This document shows, one piece after another, positions 133 through 11,639 of a stretch of DNA of 11,639 nucleotides. The position numbers and the translations under genes were made by a program. Numbering within the stretch: position 1 is the stretch's first letter; the number at the start of each line of letters is the position of its first letter. The DNA is from Diplocarpon mali (taxonomy: Eukaryota; Ascomycota; Leotiomycetes; Helotiales; Drepanopezizaceae): NCBI GenBank assembly GCA_024741835.1, contig JAENRP010000665.1, positions 1-11,639 of the forward strand, given 5' to 3'. Under the pieces are notes generated by a model. The model was not told the DNA's origin and did no database searches. It saw only the letters and a list, made by a program, of their open reading frames with translations.

Positions 133-603
133 ACTCTTAAGCTAGACTTATAAGTGGATTCCTTTAAGGAAAGTATACTCTTTACCCTAATATAATTAAG
201 TAAGGATAAGGAGAATAGATAGACTCTTAAATTAGGATTATAAGTAAAATTTATAAAAATAACTCTTAAGCTAAGACTATAAGTAGATTATAAAGTATCC
301 TTAAAGATAACTCTTAAGCTAGGATTATAAGTAAATTTAATAGAAATGACTCTTAAGCTAAGACTGCAAGTAGATTTTGCAAATTTGCTAATAATAACTC
401 TTAAGCTAAGATTATAAGTGAAATTCGCAGAAATAACTCTTAGGCTAGGACTATAAGTGAAATTCGCGAATTTATTAGAGACGACTCTTAAGCTAGGACT
501 ATAAGTAGATCTTGCTATTTTTAGGAAATCGACTCTTAAGCTAGAACTGTAAGTAGATCTTGCGATTTTATTAAAAACGACTCTTAAGCTAGGCTTGCAA
601 TTA
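133..603 (+). repeat. In-frame 39/48-bp coding minisatellite within the copia frame
   Basis: Ten copies of a motif reading T-L-K-L-[GR]-L-Q-V (Gln usually now TAA or TAG) begin at 133, 223, 262, 310, 349, 397, 436, 484, 532 and 580. The intervals are 90, 39, 48, 39, 48, 39, 48, 48 and 48, all multiples of three, and every copy is in the copia pol phase. Spacers encode a short hydrophobic/basic stretch (for example D-L-A-I-L-L-K-T), giving 13- or 16-residue peptide repeats. Because the core is palindrome-like, the opposite strand is also open and reads T-Y-S-P-S-L-R-V repeatedly. That minus-strand frame (288-614) opens only at a TTG and is best read as a mirror image. The core is a diverged version of the dispersed 24-bp element found elsewhere in this window. 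The array lies just before the GAG-pre-integrase part, where copia normally has the protease-to-integrase linker. Confidence 0.85.
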
Positions 604-2160: not shown

Positions 2161-3054
2161 GTAGTATAGAATAAGGCAATTTAAAAGGAGATAAGCTCTC
2201 TTATTACAAATAGTATATAAATAGAGGAACTAATACTAAAGGACGTAAACCTAGTATTAACAAAGTGGGTCTTTATAATTAAAATATATATAGATAGGAC
2301 CTTTAAATGTTATAAGGCAAGGCTTATAGCTAAGGGCTTCTCTTAATAGTATAGAAAAGACTACTTCGACACGTTTGCGCTAATAGTTCGTATAGATACC
2401 CTTTGCATATTTATAGTAATAGTAGCTGCTAAGAACCTTAAATGTAGATAGTATAATATTAAGAATGCATTTACTAAAGCGATTATAAAGGAACGGATTT
2501 TTCTCTCCTAACCTAATAGTATTCCTATATACGCTAGCCACTCTCTTTATATACTTTACAATATCTATAGGCTTAAATAATCAGCTTATAATTAAAACCT
2601 CTTATATAGCTTTACTTTAATAGAAATGGGATTCGTTTAAAGCTTAGCTAACCCTTATCTATTTACTTATATTAAGTATAGAATTAAGTTGCTACTATAT
2701 ATTAATAATATTGCTATAGCTATAAAAATAACTATTTAATTAGATTGGTTCTTTATAATAATTCGGAAACGTTTTAATATTAAGGATCTAAGGGGAATTT
2801 ATAAGATCCTTAGTATCTATATTATAAGGAACCGCTCTACTTAAGAACTCTAGTTAGATTAAGAATAGTATATTAAGAAGATCCTAGACCGAATAGGACT
2901 CTCTACTTATACTCCTAACTTTAAGCTAAAGTGTACTCTAATCGAAGGAAAGTATAATAAGTTAAAGCCTACTAATGAAAATGAGTAAAGAAGAGATCTA
3001 AAGAAGTACTAATAGGATATTAGAGTGATTATATATACTATAGTATATATAAGA
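2161..3054 (+). pseudogene. copia reverse transcriptase domain (degraded, truncated)
   Basis: The RVT_2 family blocks appear in order and one phase: T-K-W-V-F (2260-2274), K-A-R-L-I-A-K-G-F (2314-2340), Y-N-I-K-N-A-F (2452-2472; family MDVKNAF), Y-R-L-K-* (2566-2580; family YGLKQ), Y-I-N-N-I-A-I-A (2698-2721; family YVDD) and I-K-D-L-R-G (2776-2793). The two polymerase-active-site Asp codons GAT are now AAT, and Gly in YGLKQ is now Arg, all G-to-A changes. The domain ends in I-Y-T-I-V-Y-I-R (3031-3054), the start of the block that normally continues TRPDI before RNase H. The next base is the first T of the telomere tract, so RNase H is missing. The antisense open stretch 1737-2003 just upstream is a shadow of this pol frame. 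Confidence 0.9.
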
Positions 3055-3099
3055 TTAGGGTTAGGGTTAGGGTTAGGGTTAGGGTTAGGGTTAGGGTTA
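3055..3099 (+). repeat. Interstitial telomeric repeat, (TTAGGG)7 + TTA
   Basis: Seven perfect TTAGGG units occupy 3055-3096, followed by TTA. TTAGGG is the usual telomere repeat of filamentous ascomycetes. The G-rich strand reads left to right, so the orientation is that of a chromosome end lying to the right of the copia fragment. The tract separates two unrelated truncated retroelements at single-base resolution: copia ends at 3054 and gypsy coding is readable from 3098. It is perfectly preserved while its flanks are mutated, but this does not prove youth: neither strand of TTAGGG contains CpA, so RIP has no preferred target in it. Confidence 0.97.
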
Positions 3100-3907
3100 T
3101 AAGAACTAGATAAAACACTTTTATAGAATACTTTTTACTTATCGAACGATAATCTATAAACCGACTGGAGTTATACTATTTTTCTTTATCTATAGCAAAG
3201 AGGCATAGCTTCCTCTTAAATCCTAATAGCCTATTTAAAGATTATTTAACTATAGTCAAATTTAGAACCGTTTTAATTTGCTTATAATAAGATGCTAATA
3301 ACTTAAGCTCTAAGATATAGATATAAAGGAAATCATTCTGCAAAAGAAATAATATTAGGAAAAAGCTAAGGAAGCATAAGCTGCTTTTAAAATACTTAAA
3401 ACGTACCCTATTTGAAAAGATAATCTTATCTTAGTTTATAATATTATAAGAAGTATTAATATATTAATAGATATTAAACTTAATTATTAATAGCTTAGTC
3501 TATTTAAGGTTAAATCTAAGTAGAAAGAAAAGGGATGCTATTCTCTTTAGGAACTTGATAAAGTCGATATTAAAGGAACCTTCGTAGCCAATCGACTAAA
3601 GCGCTTTTATTAATGCAATTAGACCTTATTCCCTTTAAAAGACGAATTAGAAATTAATATAAACTCCGAATCTTCTATAGGAACCGATAGCAATATAAGC
3701 AATTTTAAACCCTTAGATAAAGACTAAGATTTTTCCAACTTAACTTATAAGCCAGTCCTACGAGTAAAGAATATTAAAATATCTAATTAATCGCAACCTT
3801 AAGTTATTATTCTTAAAATATCTAAAGAATATAAGTAGGAATATTAAACGATTTCCTAGCCTATCAATTATCCTACCTTCCTTTAATCCTTATTTTTATA
3901 TTTTTAA
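3098..3907 (+). pseudogene. Ty3/gypsy integrase C-terminal fragment (RIP-degraded)
   Basis: In the phase starting at 3098 the translation resumes as Y-K-N-*-I-K-H-F. It then gives R-T-I-I-Y-K-P-T-G-V (3143-3172), matching the R-T-T-x-R-x-S/P-T-G block of gypsy integrases, and S-K-E-A near 3194 matching the following Y-G-x-E segment. A basic helical stretch (about 3270-3400) and a decayed 'GDLVL' type segment (N-L-I-L-V-Y, 3422-3439) follow. The domain closes with K-G-T-F-V-A-N-R-L-K-R-F (3572-3607), the G-T-F-x-G-N-R-L-K motif near the end of pol in fungal gypsy elements. An acidic/serine-rich tail continues past it and contains a copy of the palindromic peptide element (3743-3766). The exact end is uncertain; I place it at the TAA of 3905-3907, after which composition turns pyrimidine-rich. 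RT, RNase H, protease and the integrase catalytic core are absent, and no LTR is recognisable. Confidence 0.82.
3743..3766 (+). repeat. Palindromic peptide element, gypsy-tail copy
   Basis: Reads T-Y-K-P-V-L-R-V in the phase of the gypsy fragment. The last three codons (cta cga gta) match the well-preserved copy at 7277-7300 except for one third base. The inverted-repeat arms are now imperfect. Confidence 0.7.
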
Positions 3908-4159
3908 TAAGGTCGCTTCCTTTATTATTTAAGATATAGATCTTTTAAGATCACTTTAAATTCTTACCTACTTTGACTTATTTTACATTCTTAATATTAG
4001 CCTTTAATTATAATATTCTTATTACTTTCTTTAAATAACAAATAAAAAGTCCAATTTCCTTAATATATATATAGTAAACCTATTGCAGCTTATATGCCCT
4101 TTTAATTCTTATACCCTATTAAACTCTCTTATTTATACTCCCTATCTTTCATAAGTAAT
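3908..4159 (+). promoter_or_regulatory. Pyrimidine-rich leader before pseudogene A
   Basis: No coding phase can be followed here. The + strand is rich in T and C runs, as is common in fungal promoters and 5' leaders, and has several TATA-like stretches (for example around 4062-4073). The equivalent region before pseudogene B (7517-8052) has the same character. No specific factor site can be named. Confidence 0.4.
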
Positions 4160-5005
4160 ATGCCTTTAAAGAACTTACAAATGGTTTTATCTACTGCAAT
4201 AAAGGATAAATAAGTACTAGTTATAAACTTCTCTTAAGATAGTAGAGCTATTATATTATTAAAGAGCTTTAAATCGACCTATGCAGCCTTAGGAGATATA
4301 GAGTAATAAAAACTCCTTTTAACTTACGCGAATACTATTAGCAACCTTTTAACTTAAGTAGCCTTTGGAATTCTCTAATTTAACGACTTTTTAATTAAAG
4401 AATTAAGATTAAAGGGAATCTCTAAAGAGGAATTCTTAGCTAATATAGATTAATATATAACCTTGGCTAACACTTTTAAAATGGACTAAGATAAAAGGGA
4501 AGAATCTATTTAACGTTTGGATAATTTAGCTACTAATAAGAAAGGACTCTTATTTCGGTCATATTTCTTAATAAATATTAATTCTAATAATAGAAGGCGA
4601 GTATTATTAAAAATTCTTAAAGAAAATACTCCTATAGCTAGAGCTATTTAGATTCTCAATTTCTTTATTATTTAAGAGGGAGTAGTAAAATTCTAAGGCA
4701 ATCGAATTCGCAGTTGCCGATTTGTAAGCCTATTTAATGCAATACTTATAGCAGTTAATAGAGCTATAAAAAGATCAAATTAGGCTATAGATATTACCCT
4801 ACCTAATAGTACTATTATTAATATACTAGTGCTCTGCGCTTCTACTTATAGTTTGCTTATTTTAAAAGAAAACTAAACTCTTATATTAGGGTTTAGATAA
4901 GATTTCTTTAATAATAAAAAAGAGAATTAGTTATTTATAATTAAGCCTACTTTGAAATTCGCCTTTTAGCTTAAAGATATAATAAGTGCTGAATTATATA
5001 ATTTA

Positions 5006-5029
5006 ACTTATAATCTTAGACTAAGAGTT
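5006..5029 (+). repeat. Palindromic peptide element in A, site 1
   Basis: Reads T-Y-N-L-R-L-R-V in the phase of A (codon 283). It occupies the same place as the copy at 8941-8964 in B, preceded in both by an N-L dipeptide. The inverted repeat is largely lost. Confidence 0.65.
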
Positions 5030-6391
5030 AGAAATGAGAATTTTAAAACTGGACCTAACTTGCCTTTTGCTAAAATGATTCTAAAAACTGCTATTAAATA
5101 AATTGCCCGAACGCTTAGCGCAGCCTCTTTAGAGTTTTTGGAATCTTTAGGAGACTCTCTTCTAGCTAAATAACCTATTTTAGCTCGACCTTTAAGAAGA
5201 ATAGATCATTTGATAGCTACCTTAGCTAATTTGTAATTTGAAATTAAAGGATTGCGCGCTCGCTTAAACTCCTTCCTTAACAATTTAAAGGAGCTAGTTC
5301 TTAACTTCTTTATATTTATATACAACTGTTTTAGAAATAATAATATAAGGGAAGACCTTATTCCTACTACTTTAAAGATAATTAGGAGAGCTATTAGATA
5401 GATTTAATAGCTTATCTTAAACGAGTTCGCCCTTATAGATATTATTCAATTCTTTAATAATTATAGAAGTTAAGAACTTAGTCTTTTAAATGCTAAGCGA
5501 GACTATTTTATCTTATAAGAAAGAGAATATGAAGAGGAATCTATTAATTAGGACATTTGTAATTATAGCAATATGCCTTAATCGGTTATTCTTAACCTTA
5601 AGCTTAAAGAACGATATAATATTTAAGTATCCTTTGTAATAAAAACTCGCTTTTAATAGTATCTTCTTAGCATAAGAATTAAAGGGAGAAGACTTTACGA
5701 CCTTTATATTCGCTCTCTTTTAATTTACTATAATCTTAATTATAAAGGATTTAATATTAACGAAACTATTAAATACCTCGAACTTTTCTATAATATAGAA
5801 GATATCGATCTTTTTCTAATCTACTTTAATAATCAATTCTTTATCTCTTTAAAGATACGCAAATCTAACCTATTAATAATAGAAGCATCTCTAGGTACTA
5901 TAAAATTTAAAGCTGATCTTAAAGCCTTAAAAGCGTTAGAGCCGATTAAATGGAATAATTCTTTCTTTTCAACATTTTTAAGCAATAAATAGCAAAAGGA
6001 AATAAAAGAAGAAGGGTCAATTGTAATGCCTGAACCCTTTAAATGCCTCTTTCTAACTGATAATTTTACTATTAATAATAGTGCTTTTATAGGTATATTC
6101 CTTTCTATTATAAGATAAGAAGCAAAGATATACCTTTATCACTTCCGCCTTACAAATAATGCAACCTTTATACCTTCTTATTTTCTTTATAATATAATAT
6201 TCAGTTTTATTTAATAAGTCCTTTGGATATATTATAGACTCTACCTTTTAGCTATAATAGTGAAAAATAGAAGAGCCTATTAGCTTATAGCCTATCCTAA
6301 ACCTCTCTAATTAATTAGCCTTAGTCTTTATAATTAAGTTGTTTTAATAAAAAGAGATATAAGTGCTACTAATAAAGAAATTCCAATTTTT

Positions 6392-6415
6392 ACTTATAGT
6401 CCTAGCCTATAAGTC
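6392..6415 (+). repeat. Palindromic peptide element in A, site 2
   Basis: Reads T-Y-S-P-S-L-*-V in phase (codon 745). The arms ACTTATAGTCC and AGCCTATAAGT pair at 9 of 11 positions around a single central base. It lies at the site equivalent to 10357-10380 in B, about 30 codons after the shared Y-P-K-P. Confidence 0.8.
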
Positions 6416-7276
6416 AATTTTATTAGAAAGTAAGTCTTAGATTATTAGATCCTACTAATCGGATAAAGACTAGCTTTTAAAAGCCTTAATAGGTAGGTCG
6501 GCTCTTAGTCGAATGTAAAACTCACTCTATCTATAAAGAAGATAAGTCGATAGACTTCCTAAGCACTCGGTTCAAAATCTCAACTAGCTTATATAACTAT
6601 AAAAATAAAGTAAAAAGAGATCTTACGGCTTATTACTAATAAGAGTAACCTTATTATAATAATAATAAAATAAGGGCACCTTTTTAAAATACGCTTAAAT
6701 AAACTTTATAAAATTAGTGACTTTATGACCTTTTATAACAACTATATAGCTATTTGCAATAAGAATACCTTAGAAAATAAGACTCGAATCTCCGATCTTA
6801 TCTTTTCAGTCTTTACTTTAGAGCAACCTTTAGTGCCTTAATAAATTAATATAAATAAAACTATTATACCTTTTAAGGTAGCTTTTCATCTTAAGAACTG
6901 CAGTAGCCTCTTTAAAGCTATTATTAGTTAGCGCTCTTAAATAGATCCTTCTATTATAATTAAAGTATAGGAGTTATTCCTTCTTAATAAGGATAAATTG
7001 AAAATCCACCTTATAGAATATAATCAAAAACTCTTTAATGCCCTTATTAAAGCCTAGATAAACGTTATAAATACTAAGTCGCTTCTTTATAGACTTAAGT
7101 CTTAAGGATAATGCAATAAAGTAAATGTTATTTAAAAGCCTAATATACTAATTGATAAAGGCATTATTATAAGAAAATTTGGAAAAGAAACAAACTGAGA
7201 TACTAGTATAGTGCTAGACCTTGATTTAGGAACCAATCTCCTATTTTTACCCTTAAGCTTAGAAACGCTAAGACTG

Positions 7277-7300
7277 ACTCGCAAGCCCAGCCTGCGAGTA
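7277..7300 (+). repeat. Palindromic peptide element in A, site 3 (best-preserved coding copy)
   Basis: Reads T-R-K-P-S-L-R-V with no stop, in phase (codon 1040). It has a perfect 7-bp outer stem, ACTCGCA with TGCGAGT, and 9 of 11 arm positions pair. CpG and CpA sites are intact here, so this copy probably shows the pre-RIP sequence best. It is equivalent in position to 11179-11202 in B. Confidence 0.85.
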
Positions 7301-7516
7301 AGGTTGGACTTAGCTAGCTTTAGCCTACGAGATGGTTCGGATGAACTTCGGCTACTAATCCTAGGGGTATAAATAGAGGTTCCTTTAGTAAAGGTACCTA
7401 AATTAGAGAAATCGCTAAGAGGTAAGAACTAACGCAAGAGAAGAAGACTCTAAAGTGATGATAAAATTAACAATTGAGTCAAACGATCTAGGAAATCAAG
7501 TCTATCCCCCTTTTGA

Positions 7517-8052
7517 AAACTATTTAGAGAAATTGCAAATTAGAAGTTGAATTTTTTTTAAGATTATCTACTTTTTATATACCTGCACCTCTTTATTCTT
7601 AACCTATTATTTTACTCTATATATATTCTTTATTTACTTTACTCTTTATATGATTTAGTCTTTGATTATTCCCTTTATATGCAACTTTCTAACGCTTACC
7701 TTTGAAATATCGTCCTTACCTTTAACAATTGTCATTTACTAATTGTAAGTCCTTATATATATTATACCTTACTTTTGTTCCCACTTTCGGCCTCTTTATA
7801 CCCACTTTTCCTTTGCGCGCTAATGCGATTCCTATCTTTATAAATAAACCTCTTCCTGCACTATAATTATACTTTTTTTTTACCTTTTTTATAACCCTAC
7901 TAAACCCTAGTACTAGCACTAATAATACTACTAGTATTATCTTTCTATTATTAATCTTTTCTGATTAAAGCTTTTGGTCTTAATAAATTCTTTTTAAAGA
8001 GGATTTATTCTTCTACCAGTTGAACCCTATCCCTTTTATTAAATAATTCATT
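7517..8052. promoter_or_regulatory. Intergenic region between A and B, pyrimidine-rich
   Basis: No coding phase is supported. The + strand is strongly T/C-rich with T-runs (7552-7559 and about 7873-7880) and TATA-like stretches, consistent with A's 3' end plus B's promoter and leader. The minus-strand open stretch 7722-7919 gives a Lys/Arg-rich peptide only because the other strand is pyrimidine-rich; it has no homologous feel, so I leave it out. The only structured elements are the palindrome at 7922-7940 and two CCCTA words at 7895-7909 that look telomere-like but are not tandem. Confidence 0.5.
7922..7940. promoter_or_regulatory. Perfect 19-bp palindrome upstream of B
   Basis: Arms ATAATACTA and TAGTATTAT are exact reverse complements around one C, about 110 bp before the ATG of B. 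It could be an operator-like dimer site or chance in AT-rich DNA; there is no counterpart evident before A. Confidence 0.3.
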
Positions 8053-8940
8053 ATGGTACCACTAGGCATAAGTAAAAAGGCCATACCTAAGAAGAGCATA
8101 GCTGTCGTCGCATTAGGCAGTAAGACCTTAGTCGCCTTTAGCAACGAACTAATATTAGAGGGAGGATTCTCTTAGGATAGTAAAACTTTAAGATTATTGG
8201 AAGATGTTATAAGCACCTATAGAACATTAGGTGAAATAGAATAGCAAGTATTCCTAAACTCATTTATAAAAGTATTAAATTATAGAATTTCTACTATAGA
8301 AGAAGGATTTCTAGGATTTGATGACTTCTTTGAAAATAAATTAAAAACCAAAGGTATTAATCGAGAGAAGTTTTTATAAGAATATTAGGGTTATGCCAAC
8401 TCTATAGACTTATTTCGGAAGAATAGAGATAAAAAGGAGGAGTGTACTAAAAGACTATTGCAATTTACTAGCAGTACCTATGGCATATTATTCCAAACCT
8501 ACTTTATGATAGATATTACCGCTAATAACGCCCTATAGGGGCTTAGAAAAATCTTTAAGATATATCAACCTATAGCAAAGGCCATATAGGTATTAAATTA
8601 TTTCACTATCTAAAAAGGTATGAAAAAGCTGTAGGGAAATAGCATTAGAGGTAGAAAATTTATTAGGTTCTTAAGCACTATTATATACTCTACTATTCAG
8701 ACTATAAAAGACAACCTATTATAGTATGATAATCTTACACTTTCCGACCAAACTGTTCTAAATACACTTAGCCTTTAATAGTTATAATATAGTCTACTTA
8801 TTATAAAAGAAAAGATGACTTATCTCGCTAAGTATATTATAAATTACTTTAATAATAAGATAGAGAGATAGGAGTTTATTATCCCTATTACTTTAAAAAT
8901 GCTACTACCCTTAGTAGGAATAACTAATAAGGAGAATTTG

Positions 8941-8964
8941 ACTTATAGGCCTGGCCTATAAGTG
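8941..8964 (+). repeat. Palindromic peptide element in B, site 1 (perfect inverted repeat)
   Basis: Arms ACTTATAGGCC and GGCCTATAAGT are perfect 11-bp reverse complements around one central T. It reads T-Y-R-P-G-L-*-V in the phase of B (codon 297). It shares its position with 5006-5029 in A. Confidence 0.88.
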
Positions 8965-9126
8965 GAATTAGTATATAAGGAGGATATCCTTAAGCTAGAG
9001 ATTGCTATGATACTAGGAACTTAAGCAGCTAACTTGCCCGACTACCAATCCTCTGACTCAAACGAATTTAAATTACTATCCTTAGAAATGCCCTAAATAC
9101 CTTAAACACTAGTAGCAAAGAAAATG

Positions 9127-9150
9127 ACTCGCAAGCCCGATCTATAGGTC
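9127..9150 (+). repeat. Palindromic peptide element in B, site not occupied in A
   Basis: Reads T-R-K-P-D-L-*-V in phase (codon 359). The left half is identical to the copy at 7277 for 12 bases; the right half has decayed. The matching part of A has no such motif, so it was gained in B or lost in A. Confidence 0.72.
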
Positions 9151-10356
9151 AGAATATATAATAATATAGACTTAGAAGATAAGCTAACGGATAAAGTAGA
9201 TAATGCTATTACTAATATATTAGAAATTTTTAATAATATTAAGAAAGATATTTTTAATATTATTCAATCCTTCCTTAAGGACTTGCAAAAGTTTGTTTTC
9301 AAATTTTATAAGTCGATAATAAAGCGTTTAAGAAAGGAAGGTTAGGAAGAAGTTTTATTAATATAGGAAGGAATAGCAAGAGCTGTTAAATAAATTATAA
9401 AACTGCAATAAGATGAATTCTCTATAGATAATATTATATAGTTCTTTATTAATTATAAGAAATTGAATAGTAACTACTATATTCTTAAAGAAAAGTCAAA
9501 AGATAGTACAACTATTGTCTTTATAGAATGCTATTAAGTTCCCTTTAATATTAAGATAATACTATAGTATAGTAATAGATTTAAAATTATAGTAATATTA
9601 GAAATGAAAATAAGACTCTCTAAATTTATAGTAGGAATATTCAAGGACTTTAATTTTGATAAATTCTACGCCCTTTATAAACGATAATACGCGCAGTACT
9701 ATAGGCTGGCGATAATAGGCCTTAATAATAAAGATATATTATCTAATATCTATAAATTTTGCACTGCTCTTGACTTAAAGTTGTTTTTACTATACTTAAG
9801 GAATTATACAATTATAGCCACTAGTAATAGAATAGCAAGCTAGGTTAAGAAAGATATATTATTAGGATTCGCTAAATTCAAAGTGGCGCCTGAAGCTTTG
9901 AAATTATTCTATAATATCGCCTGGACTCCCGCTTAATATAATGCTATATTAACTAGTAATAAATTAATATCATTTTAAAGCAAAGGTTTTTTAAATATAC
10001 CTAAACTATTCAGTTGTGCTTTCTTAAGTACTATATATATATATAGTTATAGTTCTCGCGCAAAGACTTCATTTTTAACATTAGTATAAAAAGAACTGGA
10101 AATGTATAGATATCATTTCCGAATCTCCGATAAGAAGCCAGCTCCTCTATCCGCATTCCTCTATAATATGACTTATAGTTTAATATAACAGACTTTAAGA
10201 ATGTACTATAGATTATACCTAGGCGCTCTGCTTACTTATTATAATTCTTTATACAAGCTAGTAATATACCCTAAGCCTATACAGTTTATTAAGGTTGACT
10301 ACTATTCGAAAATCGTTGCAACTAGAATTAATACTAATATAAGATTTGTAAGATTG

Positions 10357-10380
10357 ACTCTTAGGCCTAGCTCGTAGGTC
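10357..10380 (+). repeat. Palindromic peptide element in B, site 2
   Basis: Reads T-L-R-P-S-S-*-V in phase (codon 769), about 27 codons after Y-P-K-P as in A. Arm pairing is mostly lost. Confidence 0.7.
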
Positions 10381-11178
10381 AGCCCTCCTAATAATAGAAC
10401 TATTAACTACTATATCATTCTAGTAGCCAAATAGTCGACCGGCCAATTTGCTATATAGGAGAAGTCTTATAAATCATCAATCCTTATATTAATTAGACCT
10501 AAGAATGCTTAATGGATTTCGATAAACTTAGTATGAAGCGCTGCTTAATAAAAAGAATTAAATATTAAACAAAGGATATTCTTAAAAGAATATATTTCTA
10601 ATAAGACCGTCCTATTCTTAGTGTTTATAAGATAAGGAACATTTATTAACTTAGATTCGGAATAAGAACTTGGCAAAGGCGGCTTCCTTACGATTAGCAA
10701 TAACTATACTAAAGTTGTCGGGAACAAAGCCCTTAAGAATAGAGTGGACCTAGAGGACTTTTCGATTAAAGCCATTAATATAAAGCGACCTTAGACGGCA
10801 AGATAGAGTATTATAGGCGATTTATTTGCAAAGTTCTATATAATACTTAGAATAACAAAAGGTGGTCTATTATTAAAGGCGCTTATAGAAAGAAGACTAT
10901 AGAATAATCTATTAGTTATAATAATAGTAAAAGACTTATTCTTAAAGGATATTACGCAGTTGATAATCTATTTAAAGAAATACGAGTAAGAACTATTCGA
11001 AGATTTTGCGAACACTTAGAAAATGATTCAATAGTTAAAGCTATAGCTATATAGAGATAAGTCTTAGGCTAAGACTAAGGGTATAGATAATAGTATCGAG
11101 GCTAATAATATGATCGACGAGGTCATTCTTCTTAAGAAATACTCTATTAAGAAACCTTGAGCAAAGACCTTAGAAATG

Positions 11179-11202
11179 AGTCCTAGGCCCGGCCTATGAC
11201 TC
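11179..11202 (+). repeat. Palindromic peptide element in B, site 3
   Basis: Reads S-P-R-P-G-L-*-L in phase (codon 1043). Arms AGTCCTAGGCC and GGCCTATGACT pair at 10 of 11 positions around one C. The stop is TGA, the product expected from a C-to-T change in the CGA (Arg) of the intact copy. Confidence 0.82.
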
Positions 11203-11526
11203 GATCTAGAGAAAGGTAAGGATAAAGAACTTATATCTATAAAATCCCCTGCCGCATCCCTCCTAGTAGTAGATAACCCTTTAAAGGATAATAATTATAA
11301 TAAAGATAATAATAATAATAATGCTATAATATAAGTCTCTCTTCCTATCGGCAGAAGCCGTTATACTATACTAGGATCCGTAAAGAGCATAGAAGCTCCT
11401 ACTATACCAAGACCTATTTCATTAGATACTAATAGCGATACTATAAGAAGAAGTGGTCGTTTAGTAAAGAGAGTATTATCTAGTAATAGTTCTCCCTATC
11501 CTCTAAAGAGAACTAAGGAAAACTAA

Positions 11527-11639
11527 TACCTAGGTTAGTTCTATTTTTTTAATTATTTTTACGATTCTATAGTTTGTTTATTTGTATTGCTAGCTTCGTT
11601 TTCTAACTCCTGGGCCCGGCCCGTAGGTAAAAGCGCATA
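11527..11639. other. Non-coding tail after pseudogene B
   Basis: No open phase. It starts with a weak inverted repeat straddling the stop of B (ACCTAGGT centre at 11528-11535 with AACTA and TTAGTT flanks), then T-rich sequence as in a 3' untranslated region, then the GC-rich palindromic element at 11606. The window ends 10 bases later. Confidence 0.5.
11606..11629 (+). repeat. Palindromic peptide element, GC-rich copy outside A and B
   Basis: Reads T-P-G-P-G-P-*-V in the same internal codon alignment as the others, centred on GGCCCGGCC-like sequence. It is the most GC-rich patch of the window. The surrounding phase contains stops, so it may lie in non-coding DNA or in a gene that continues beyond the window. 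Confidence 0.6.

Follow-up and report, generated by a model that had tools for sequence, protein, structure and literature searches.

The palindrome and the window that holds it

The window, that is, the whole stretch of 11,639 nucleotides analysed here, is contig C655 (JAENRP010000665.1) of a 49.4-Mb Diplocarpon mali assembly of 676 contigs. Its G+C content is 28%, its fungal origin is indicated by the relatives of its two long open reading frames (ORFs A and B), and its DNA carries the mark of repeat-induced mutation. Along it lie a copia reverse transcriptase (RT) match (2644–3012), the remains of a Ty3/gypsy-like element (gypsy-2) and, on the forward strand, the decayed ORFs A (4160..7477) and B (8053..11526). 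All of these parts are accompanied by copies of a 23-bp palindrome with the core ACTCSCGGKCC N GGMCCGSGAGT, two 11-base arms around a free centre, and a weak symmetric extension of about 6 bases on each side. The copies are common DNA in unrelated long terminal repeat (LTR) retrotransposons of this genome. A first, sequence-only reading of the window had drawn attention to the repeat; its coordinates, arms, frames and copia array hold, while its form of the peptide, its universal phase and the independence of hosts within the window do not.

Against a motif tolerant of repeat-induced point mutation (RIP), 19 places in the window score at least 19 of 23, with 0.74 expected from 50 Markov shuffles; the motif was derived from the window copies themselves, and the independent test is the genome-wide count given below. 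Ten of the 19 form a tandem array on the forward strand in copia-1 (133..602), in frame 1 like the RT match, with spacings of 90, 39, 48, 39, 48, 39, 48, 48 and 48 bases, every one a multiple of three. The other nine are the dispersed copies of the sequence-only reading, all found where it had placed them. One lies in the tail of gypsy-2 (3743..3765, arms matching at 7/11), three in ORF A (site 1, 5006..5028, 8/11; site 3, 6392..6414, 9/11; site 4, 7277..7299, 9/11), four in ORF B (site 1, 8941..8963, 11/11; site 2, 9127..9149, 4/11; site 3, 10357..10379, 4/11; site 4, 11179..11201, 10/11) and one downstream of the ORF B stop (11606..11628, 7/11). The arm matches that had been given for 8941, 11179, 6392 and 7277 are correct. 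Palindromy alone is weak in the window (13 places with at least 9/11 arm matches vs 8.8 expected), and the 11/11 match of copy 8941 was never reached in shuffles. The copies at 3743, 5006, 6392 and 7277 have one frame in common (mod 3 = 2), that of ORF A, and those at 8941, 9127, 10357 and 11179 a second (mod 3 = 1), that of ORF B. The ninth copy, at 11606, is present as described but lies past the ORF B stop, so that no phase can be assigned to it.

The relatives of the two ORFs give the intact form of the sites. ORF B has 51 in-frame stops besides its terminal stop; its translation with X at each stop matches four Diplocarpon coronariae proteins of 1071–1157 amino acids, among them the intact relative P0003 (PZA11_006393, 64% identity). 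A search with P0003 returned the same four proteins, itself included, and one paralogue, P0007 (PZA11_006394), which matches ORF A with 63% identity over 1105 amino acids; the two locus numbers are consecutive. Among the candidates scored there was no protein relative outside D. coronariae at E up to 10, and no Pfam family matched ORF B, the decayed ORF A reading or proteins P0001–P0006 above cut-off. The structure predicted for P0003 from 5 sequences has a mean pLDDT of 30.6 and is too poor to use. A and B are adjacent paralogous ORFs of about 1.1 thousand amino acids each, and decayed copies of B number at least 40 in the genome. Among the best 40 of 622 candidates, all 40 ORF B copies measure 1153–1170 amino acids, and the best match to P0003 reaches 74% identity, with 31 stops. 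The paralogues are about 36% identical; sites 1 and 3 are common to both, and site 2 is in B only, without counterpart in A.

Intact sites read T-R-G-P-G-P-R-V or close variants. In P0007, the relative of ORF A, they are LTRGPGPGVR (site 1), FTRGPGPRVN (site 3) and LTREPGPRVR (site 4). The intact relatives of ORF B have LTRGPGPRVE at site 1 and LTRGPGPRVN at site 2, and P0003 has LTPGPGSRVS at site 3 and MTPGPGPRLD at site 4. We therefore reject T-R-R-P-G-L-R-V, the peptide originally proposed, as the ancestral sequence and regard it as a decay product of T-R-G-P-G-P-R-V. By reading, CpG mutation of ACTCGCGGGCC to ACTTATAGGCC on one arm, with the complementary change on the other, yields the perfect copy at 8941, and the stop in its TYRPGL*V is thus decay. 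With the less decayed relative L036 taken as the older state and compared with 15 loci and the window (16 alignments), C-to-T change affects 54–60% of CpA, 39% of CpG and 9–16% of CpC and CpT sites on both strands. The decay thereby hits CpG as well, beyond the classical CpA context.

Common DNA in unlike retrotransposons

Genome-wide, the degenerate palindromic pattern occurs at 7,877 places (3,841 + 4,036, each counted once by its centre base), whereas the reversed control gives 0; a search of the genome on both strands had been suggested by the sequence-only reading. The undecayed form, with up to two mismatches allowed, is matched 138 times on one strand and 134 times on the other, often at the same place read both ways, and the control is again not matched at all. 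No exact match to the undecayed pattern is present in the prokaryote genome collection or the viral contigs. Nowhere in the genome does ACTCGCGGGCCNGGCCCGCGAGT, the undecayed palindrome with full symmetry, occur exactly, although single-mismatch copies are common. Contig C1 holds 51 of the first 100 places listed and contig C2 none of them. Comparison of flanks sorts 180 sites into 17 clusters, 15 of which have at least three members, and a split at the level of sites sorts 173 sites into 24 groups, two of them singletons.

The loci that we examined are those brought in by the searches and are no random sample; all sampled copies are in retrotransposon contexts. Their hosts are unlike: two copia elements, two Ty3/gypsy-like elements and the A/B ORFs. 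In gypsy-1 (locus L062) the domains RVT_1, Integrase_H2C2 and SH3_Tf2-1 are in the frame of its palindromes, as is gag_pre-integrs in copia-2 (L038). RVT_2 was found in L063 and L058. In L063 it is on the strand opposite to the array, so the link to copia-1 comes from the window, where array and RT match share frame 1. We take gypsy-2 to be of the Ty3/gypsy kind mainly from its pol motifs; its pieces gave weak matches only to solved structures, including a Ty3-type RT chain (4ol8, E 0.73), and BLASTP of a gypsy-2 piece against a gypsy-1 piece returned no alignment. Among the matches listed, the spacing pattern 1009, 1916, 162, 1967, ~2697, 1386, followed by the A and B sites, occurs twice on C1 and once on C4. 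The spacing pattern suggests that gypsy-2 and the two ORFs are probably parts of a single long element, with A/B as extra ORFs. The gypsy tail and A/B, which had been taken for unrelated hosts, are accordingly not independent within the window; independent hosts are found elsewhere in the genome. For D. coronariae, published figures are 20.7% LTR/Copia and 5.7% Ty3.

The copies agree in their DNA letters more narrowly than the peptide demands. A pattern open to all synonymous codons is found at 118 places, and all 50 of those listed use the palindrome's codons; the free synonymous choice of a conserved protein motif is not seen in them. The 50 places are not independent, many being copies of one element. 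Their third bases are T in codon 1 and A in codon 7 without exception, C or T in codon 2, G or T in codon 3, C or A in codon 5 and G or A in codon 6, and the unpaired centre alone shows all four bases. A set of 24 hand-picked contexts has T at position 3 in every case and A at position 21 in 21 cases, with C in 12, T in 5, G in 4 and A in 3 at the centre, again the least constrained third position. The narrow codon set, the unlike hosts and the loss of the peptide in a gypsy-2 site of phase 1 (see below) together argue for shared DNA and not for convergence.

Likeness extends into the flanks. The gypsy-1 and copia-1 arrays also have spacer in common, with agreement at 15 of 18 bases where the best of 300 shuffles reached 14, and 13 flank pairs agree at 12 or more of 18, whereas the null averages 0.59 such pairs and never exceeds 4. 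The 12 pairs listed include four between gypsy-1 and copia-1, two between B site 2 and L069 (perhaps related hosts) and one, c17/c18, within one locus. In representative copies from the loci and the window, not all independent, the base at -2 is Y in 28/28 and that at +2 is R in 28/28. A weak RAWTY...RAWTY symmetry runs on outside the core in the same copies. The -2 and +2 bases and this symmetry may represent element ends or a target preference. As RNA, three single cores fold into hairpins of -11.8 to -15.4 kcal/mol (z -2.6 to -3.2).

Reading phase, orientation and tandem number

We judged the reading phase in 14 contexts: sites 1–4 of B and sites 1, 3 and 4 of A from intact proteins, the protease–RT (PR-RT) and RNase H–integrase (RH-IN) linkers of gypsy-1, the copia-1 array, two copia-2 sites, the gypsy-2 tail at 3743 (by reading alone) and an RH-IN-like site of gypsy-2. 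Phase 0 is used in 13 of them. The exception is the gypsy-2 RH-IN-like site, which is in phase 1 and reads ...LKGTR-LA(V/S)(L/P)A(R/C/Y)E(S/L)-N(K/E)RIL... or near. All seven copies have L-A-x-x-A-x-E there: the DNA is kept and the peptide is lost. In 7/7 copies phase 1 is the least interrupted forward frame, with 2.7 stops per 100 codons vs 14.2 and 11.9 in the other forward phases, and in two it is fully open over 93–117 codons. This coding context rules out the single phase that had been claimed for all copies. With the sites common to A and B counted once, phase 0 is found in about 10 of 11 contexts, which by our own arithmetic has a probability near 1e-4 under equal thirds. Phase is biased, not fixed, and this is consistent with selection against other peptides. 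Among the 24 site-level groups, ten lie outside these judgements, and in one of the ten, cluster 5, no frame stands out.

An asymmetric base shows that the palindrome lies in coding frames in either orientation, as T-P-G-P-G-P-R-V in gypsy-1 (L062) and as T-R-G-P-G-P-G-V in copia-2 (L038), and so bears out the earlier claim of a dispersed palindrome that gives a like peptide from either strand. At positions 5 and 19 of the 24 hand-picked contexts the combinations G-C, C-C and G-G occur; C with G, a combination that would give TPGPGPGV, is missing. All 64 variants of the undecayed core are stop-free in all six frames, so that in-frame insertion is tolerated in either orientation.

At each of four sites we scored the best 40 copies, from 199 candidates for B site 1, 164 for gypsy-1, 254 for gypsy-2 (the fifth place of the first C1 spacing set) and 172 for copia-2; the lists are ranked by likeness to the filled copy, which biases them against empty sites. 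None of the 160 copies (four queries included) is empty, and all span the site without a gap of the element's size, which leaves present insertion unsupported. No empty site was thus at hand from which to read exact boundaries or a target-site duplication, such as accompanies the terminal inverted repeats of miniature inverted-repeat transposable elements (MITEs). The sole presence/absence pair is ORF B site 2 against the old paralogue A, where the linker is too diverged for exact ends.

Tandem number does vary. One of the scored gypsy-1 copies has an extra unit, and the scored copia-2 copies differ in length by -3 to +15 bases. Copies of gypsy-1 differ by steps near 5 and 15 amino acids, and one or two 45-bp units are present in four small gypsy-1 stretches and in L062 and L067. 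Array units mostly measure 13–18 residues, and in the examined loci and the window 38 of 42 distinct spacings between neighbour copies less than 140 bp apart are multiples of three. Only tandem number is seen to vary, and recent movement is not supported.

Origin of the shared palindrome

We favour, with a probability of about 0.55, a coding mini-palindrome, shared at the level of DNA, that long ago entered the linkers of several unrelated LTR retrotransposon families and has been copied passively by them. It would have entered these linker segments in a Diplocarpon-like genome, before the families spread, and its high copy number would come mainly from host retrotransposition and from local tandem duplication, mostly in multiples of three. 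Phase 0, with the flexible linker TRGPGPRV, would be the phase mostly kept. The palindrome appears to have crossed between families, and we favour as the route a rare copying event, for example template switching of reverse transcriptase at the hairpin, which would bring the hairpin along with a few flanking bases.

Several points weigh against this reading. The arms pair at 211 of 264 positions vs 200.9 in shuffles, a modest excess reached by 19 of 2000 shuffles, and in the 24 hand-picked contexts the variation at positions 9 and 15 shows no clear co-variation. No empty site was found among the 160 scored copies, and ORF B copies are of nearly equal length in 40/40; movement of the element has thus not been observed. 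Spacings of 61, 64, 119 and 124 (4/42) are not multiples of three. Judged by fewest stops, 18 of the 24 groups favour phase 0, five phase 2 and one phase 1; this measure is poor, being confounded by mutation-made stops, and it misses ORF A site 3, for which the intact protein gives the phase. Finally, the sites 1 and 3 common to paralogues A and B imply longer retention than passive hitchhiking strictly predicts. If the module is shared, DNA-level constraint or hitchhiking can set the letters of a coding stretch, and unrelated retrotransposons that share a short module would make sequence exchange between copia and gypsy testable.

Minisatellites inside the ORFs of LTR retrotransposons are a known kind of repeat, and the arrays resemble them in their 39–54 bp, mostly in-frame units with copy-number change; unlike them, the palindrome unit is found again in elements of unrelated kinds and can also stand singly. 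The sequence-only reading had named the Rickettsia palindromic elements (RPEs) as nearest precedent, which is apt in kind. RPEs are about 150 bp long, bacterial and were first reported from unrelated metabolic genes (PMC10969869). Like them, the fungal palindrome lies in frame in unrelated coding sequences and adds a peptide (one phase in 13/14 contexts, the other context coding in a second phase), although here insertion itself is not observed. It differs from RPEs in its 23-bp core, in its fungal DNA, with ORF relatives only in a fungus, and in its restriction to retrotransposon contexts in the sampled loci. PARCELs (palindromic amphipathic repeat coding elements) encode 25-residue amphipathic repeats of 75 nt whose hidden Markov model (HMM) overlaps DUF285, found in diverse bacteria and some eukaryotic microbes (PMC2996958). 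The palindrome shares with PARCELs dyad symmetry within coding DNA, a varying number of tandem units and a link to mobile elements, which PARCELs have in some taxa. Peptide and size differ, and no 25-residue DUF285-like repeat was detected: Pfam has no match above cut-off in P0001–P0006, nor any up to E 0.1 in the array of L063. Yeast mitochondrial GC clusters are mobile, 30–80 bp long and mostly non-coding, with some in var1 (PMC4464245). Like the undecayed copies, they are short, GC-rich palindromic sequences scattered through AT-rich DNA, and some of them lie within a coding gene. They are mitochondrial and mobile, whereas our assembly is of nuclear size and the 40 best copies per site show no presence/absence polymorphism. 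No description of an in-frame palindromic coding element in fungal retrotransposons was found in the open-licence full-text literature, subscription papers being outside this scope, and "palindrom" is absent from the main texts of the D. coronariae and D. rosae papers.

The strongest rival, possible but in our view rather doubtful, sees in the palindrome a functional site of DNA or RNA, bound by a dimeric protein of the host or the element or forming a hairpin for packaging or reverse transcription, and kept in frame by selection on the nucleic acid. The conservation of third positions that are paired, while the centre is free, would suit such a site, as would the several copies per element in unrelated superfamilies, the retention in both A and B, the copy kept in another reading phase in gypsy-2, and the palindromic extension with its invariant Y and R. 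Against it, gypsy-1 copies differ in tandem number at one site, arm co-variation is weak, and no known motif was identified. We consider equally tentative the corresponding proposal that LTR superfamilies of one fungal lineage share a 23–35 bp palindrome module, translated as a harmless linker and kept for a DNA or RNA role. A mini-element that is mobile now or was so recently, with its own insertion mechanism like that of the yeast mitochondrial GC clusters, would account for the spread of the palindrome over unrelated elements, for its occurrence in coding frames in either orientation and for the presence of site 2 in B but not in A. It is improbable given the lack of empty sites (in lists whose ranking is biased) and of any shown target-site duplication, and given the clustering on C1, where 50 of the 51 places among the first 100 listed lie in three islands covering about 67 kb of 560 kb. 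Less probable again is a convergent or selected peptide linker, TRGPGPRV evolved separately in each unrelated protein, which the sequence-only reading had offered as its alternative. The prevalence of phase 0, array spacings that are mostly multiples of three, and the position of B sites 1, 2 and 4 in Pro/Glu/Ser-rich stretches (by eye) agree with it, but the codon data strongly disfavour it, the phase-1 coding context loses the peptide, and one copy lies downstream of ORF B. Chance or a composition artefact of AT-rich decayed DNA, despite the mild enrichment of palindromy alone in the window, is refuted by the genome-wide count against its empty control and by the excess of motif matches in the window itself.

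Apart from the palindromes, the window holds 7.5 perfect copies of the telomere repeat TTAGGG (3055–3099), inside the contig between the end of the copia RT match at 3012 and the remains of gypsy-2.

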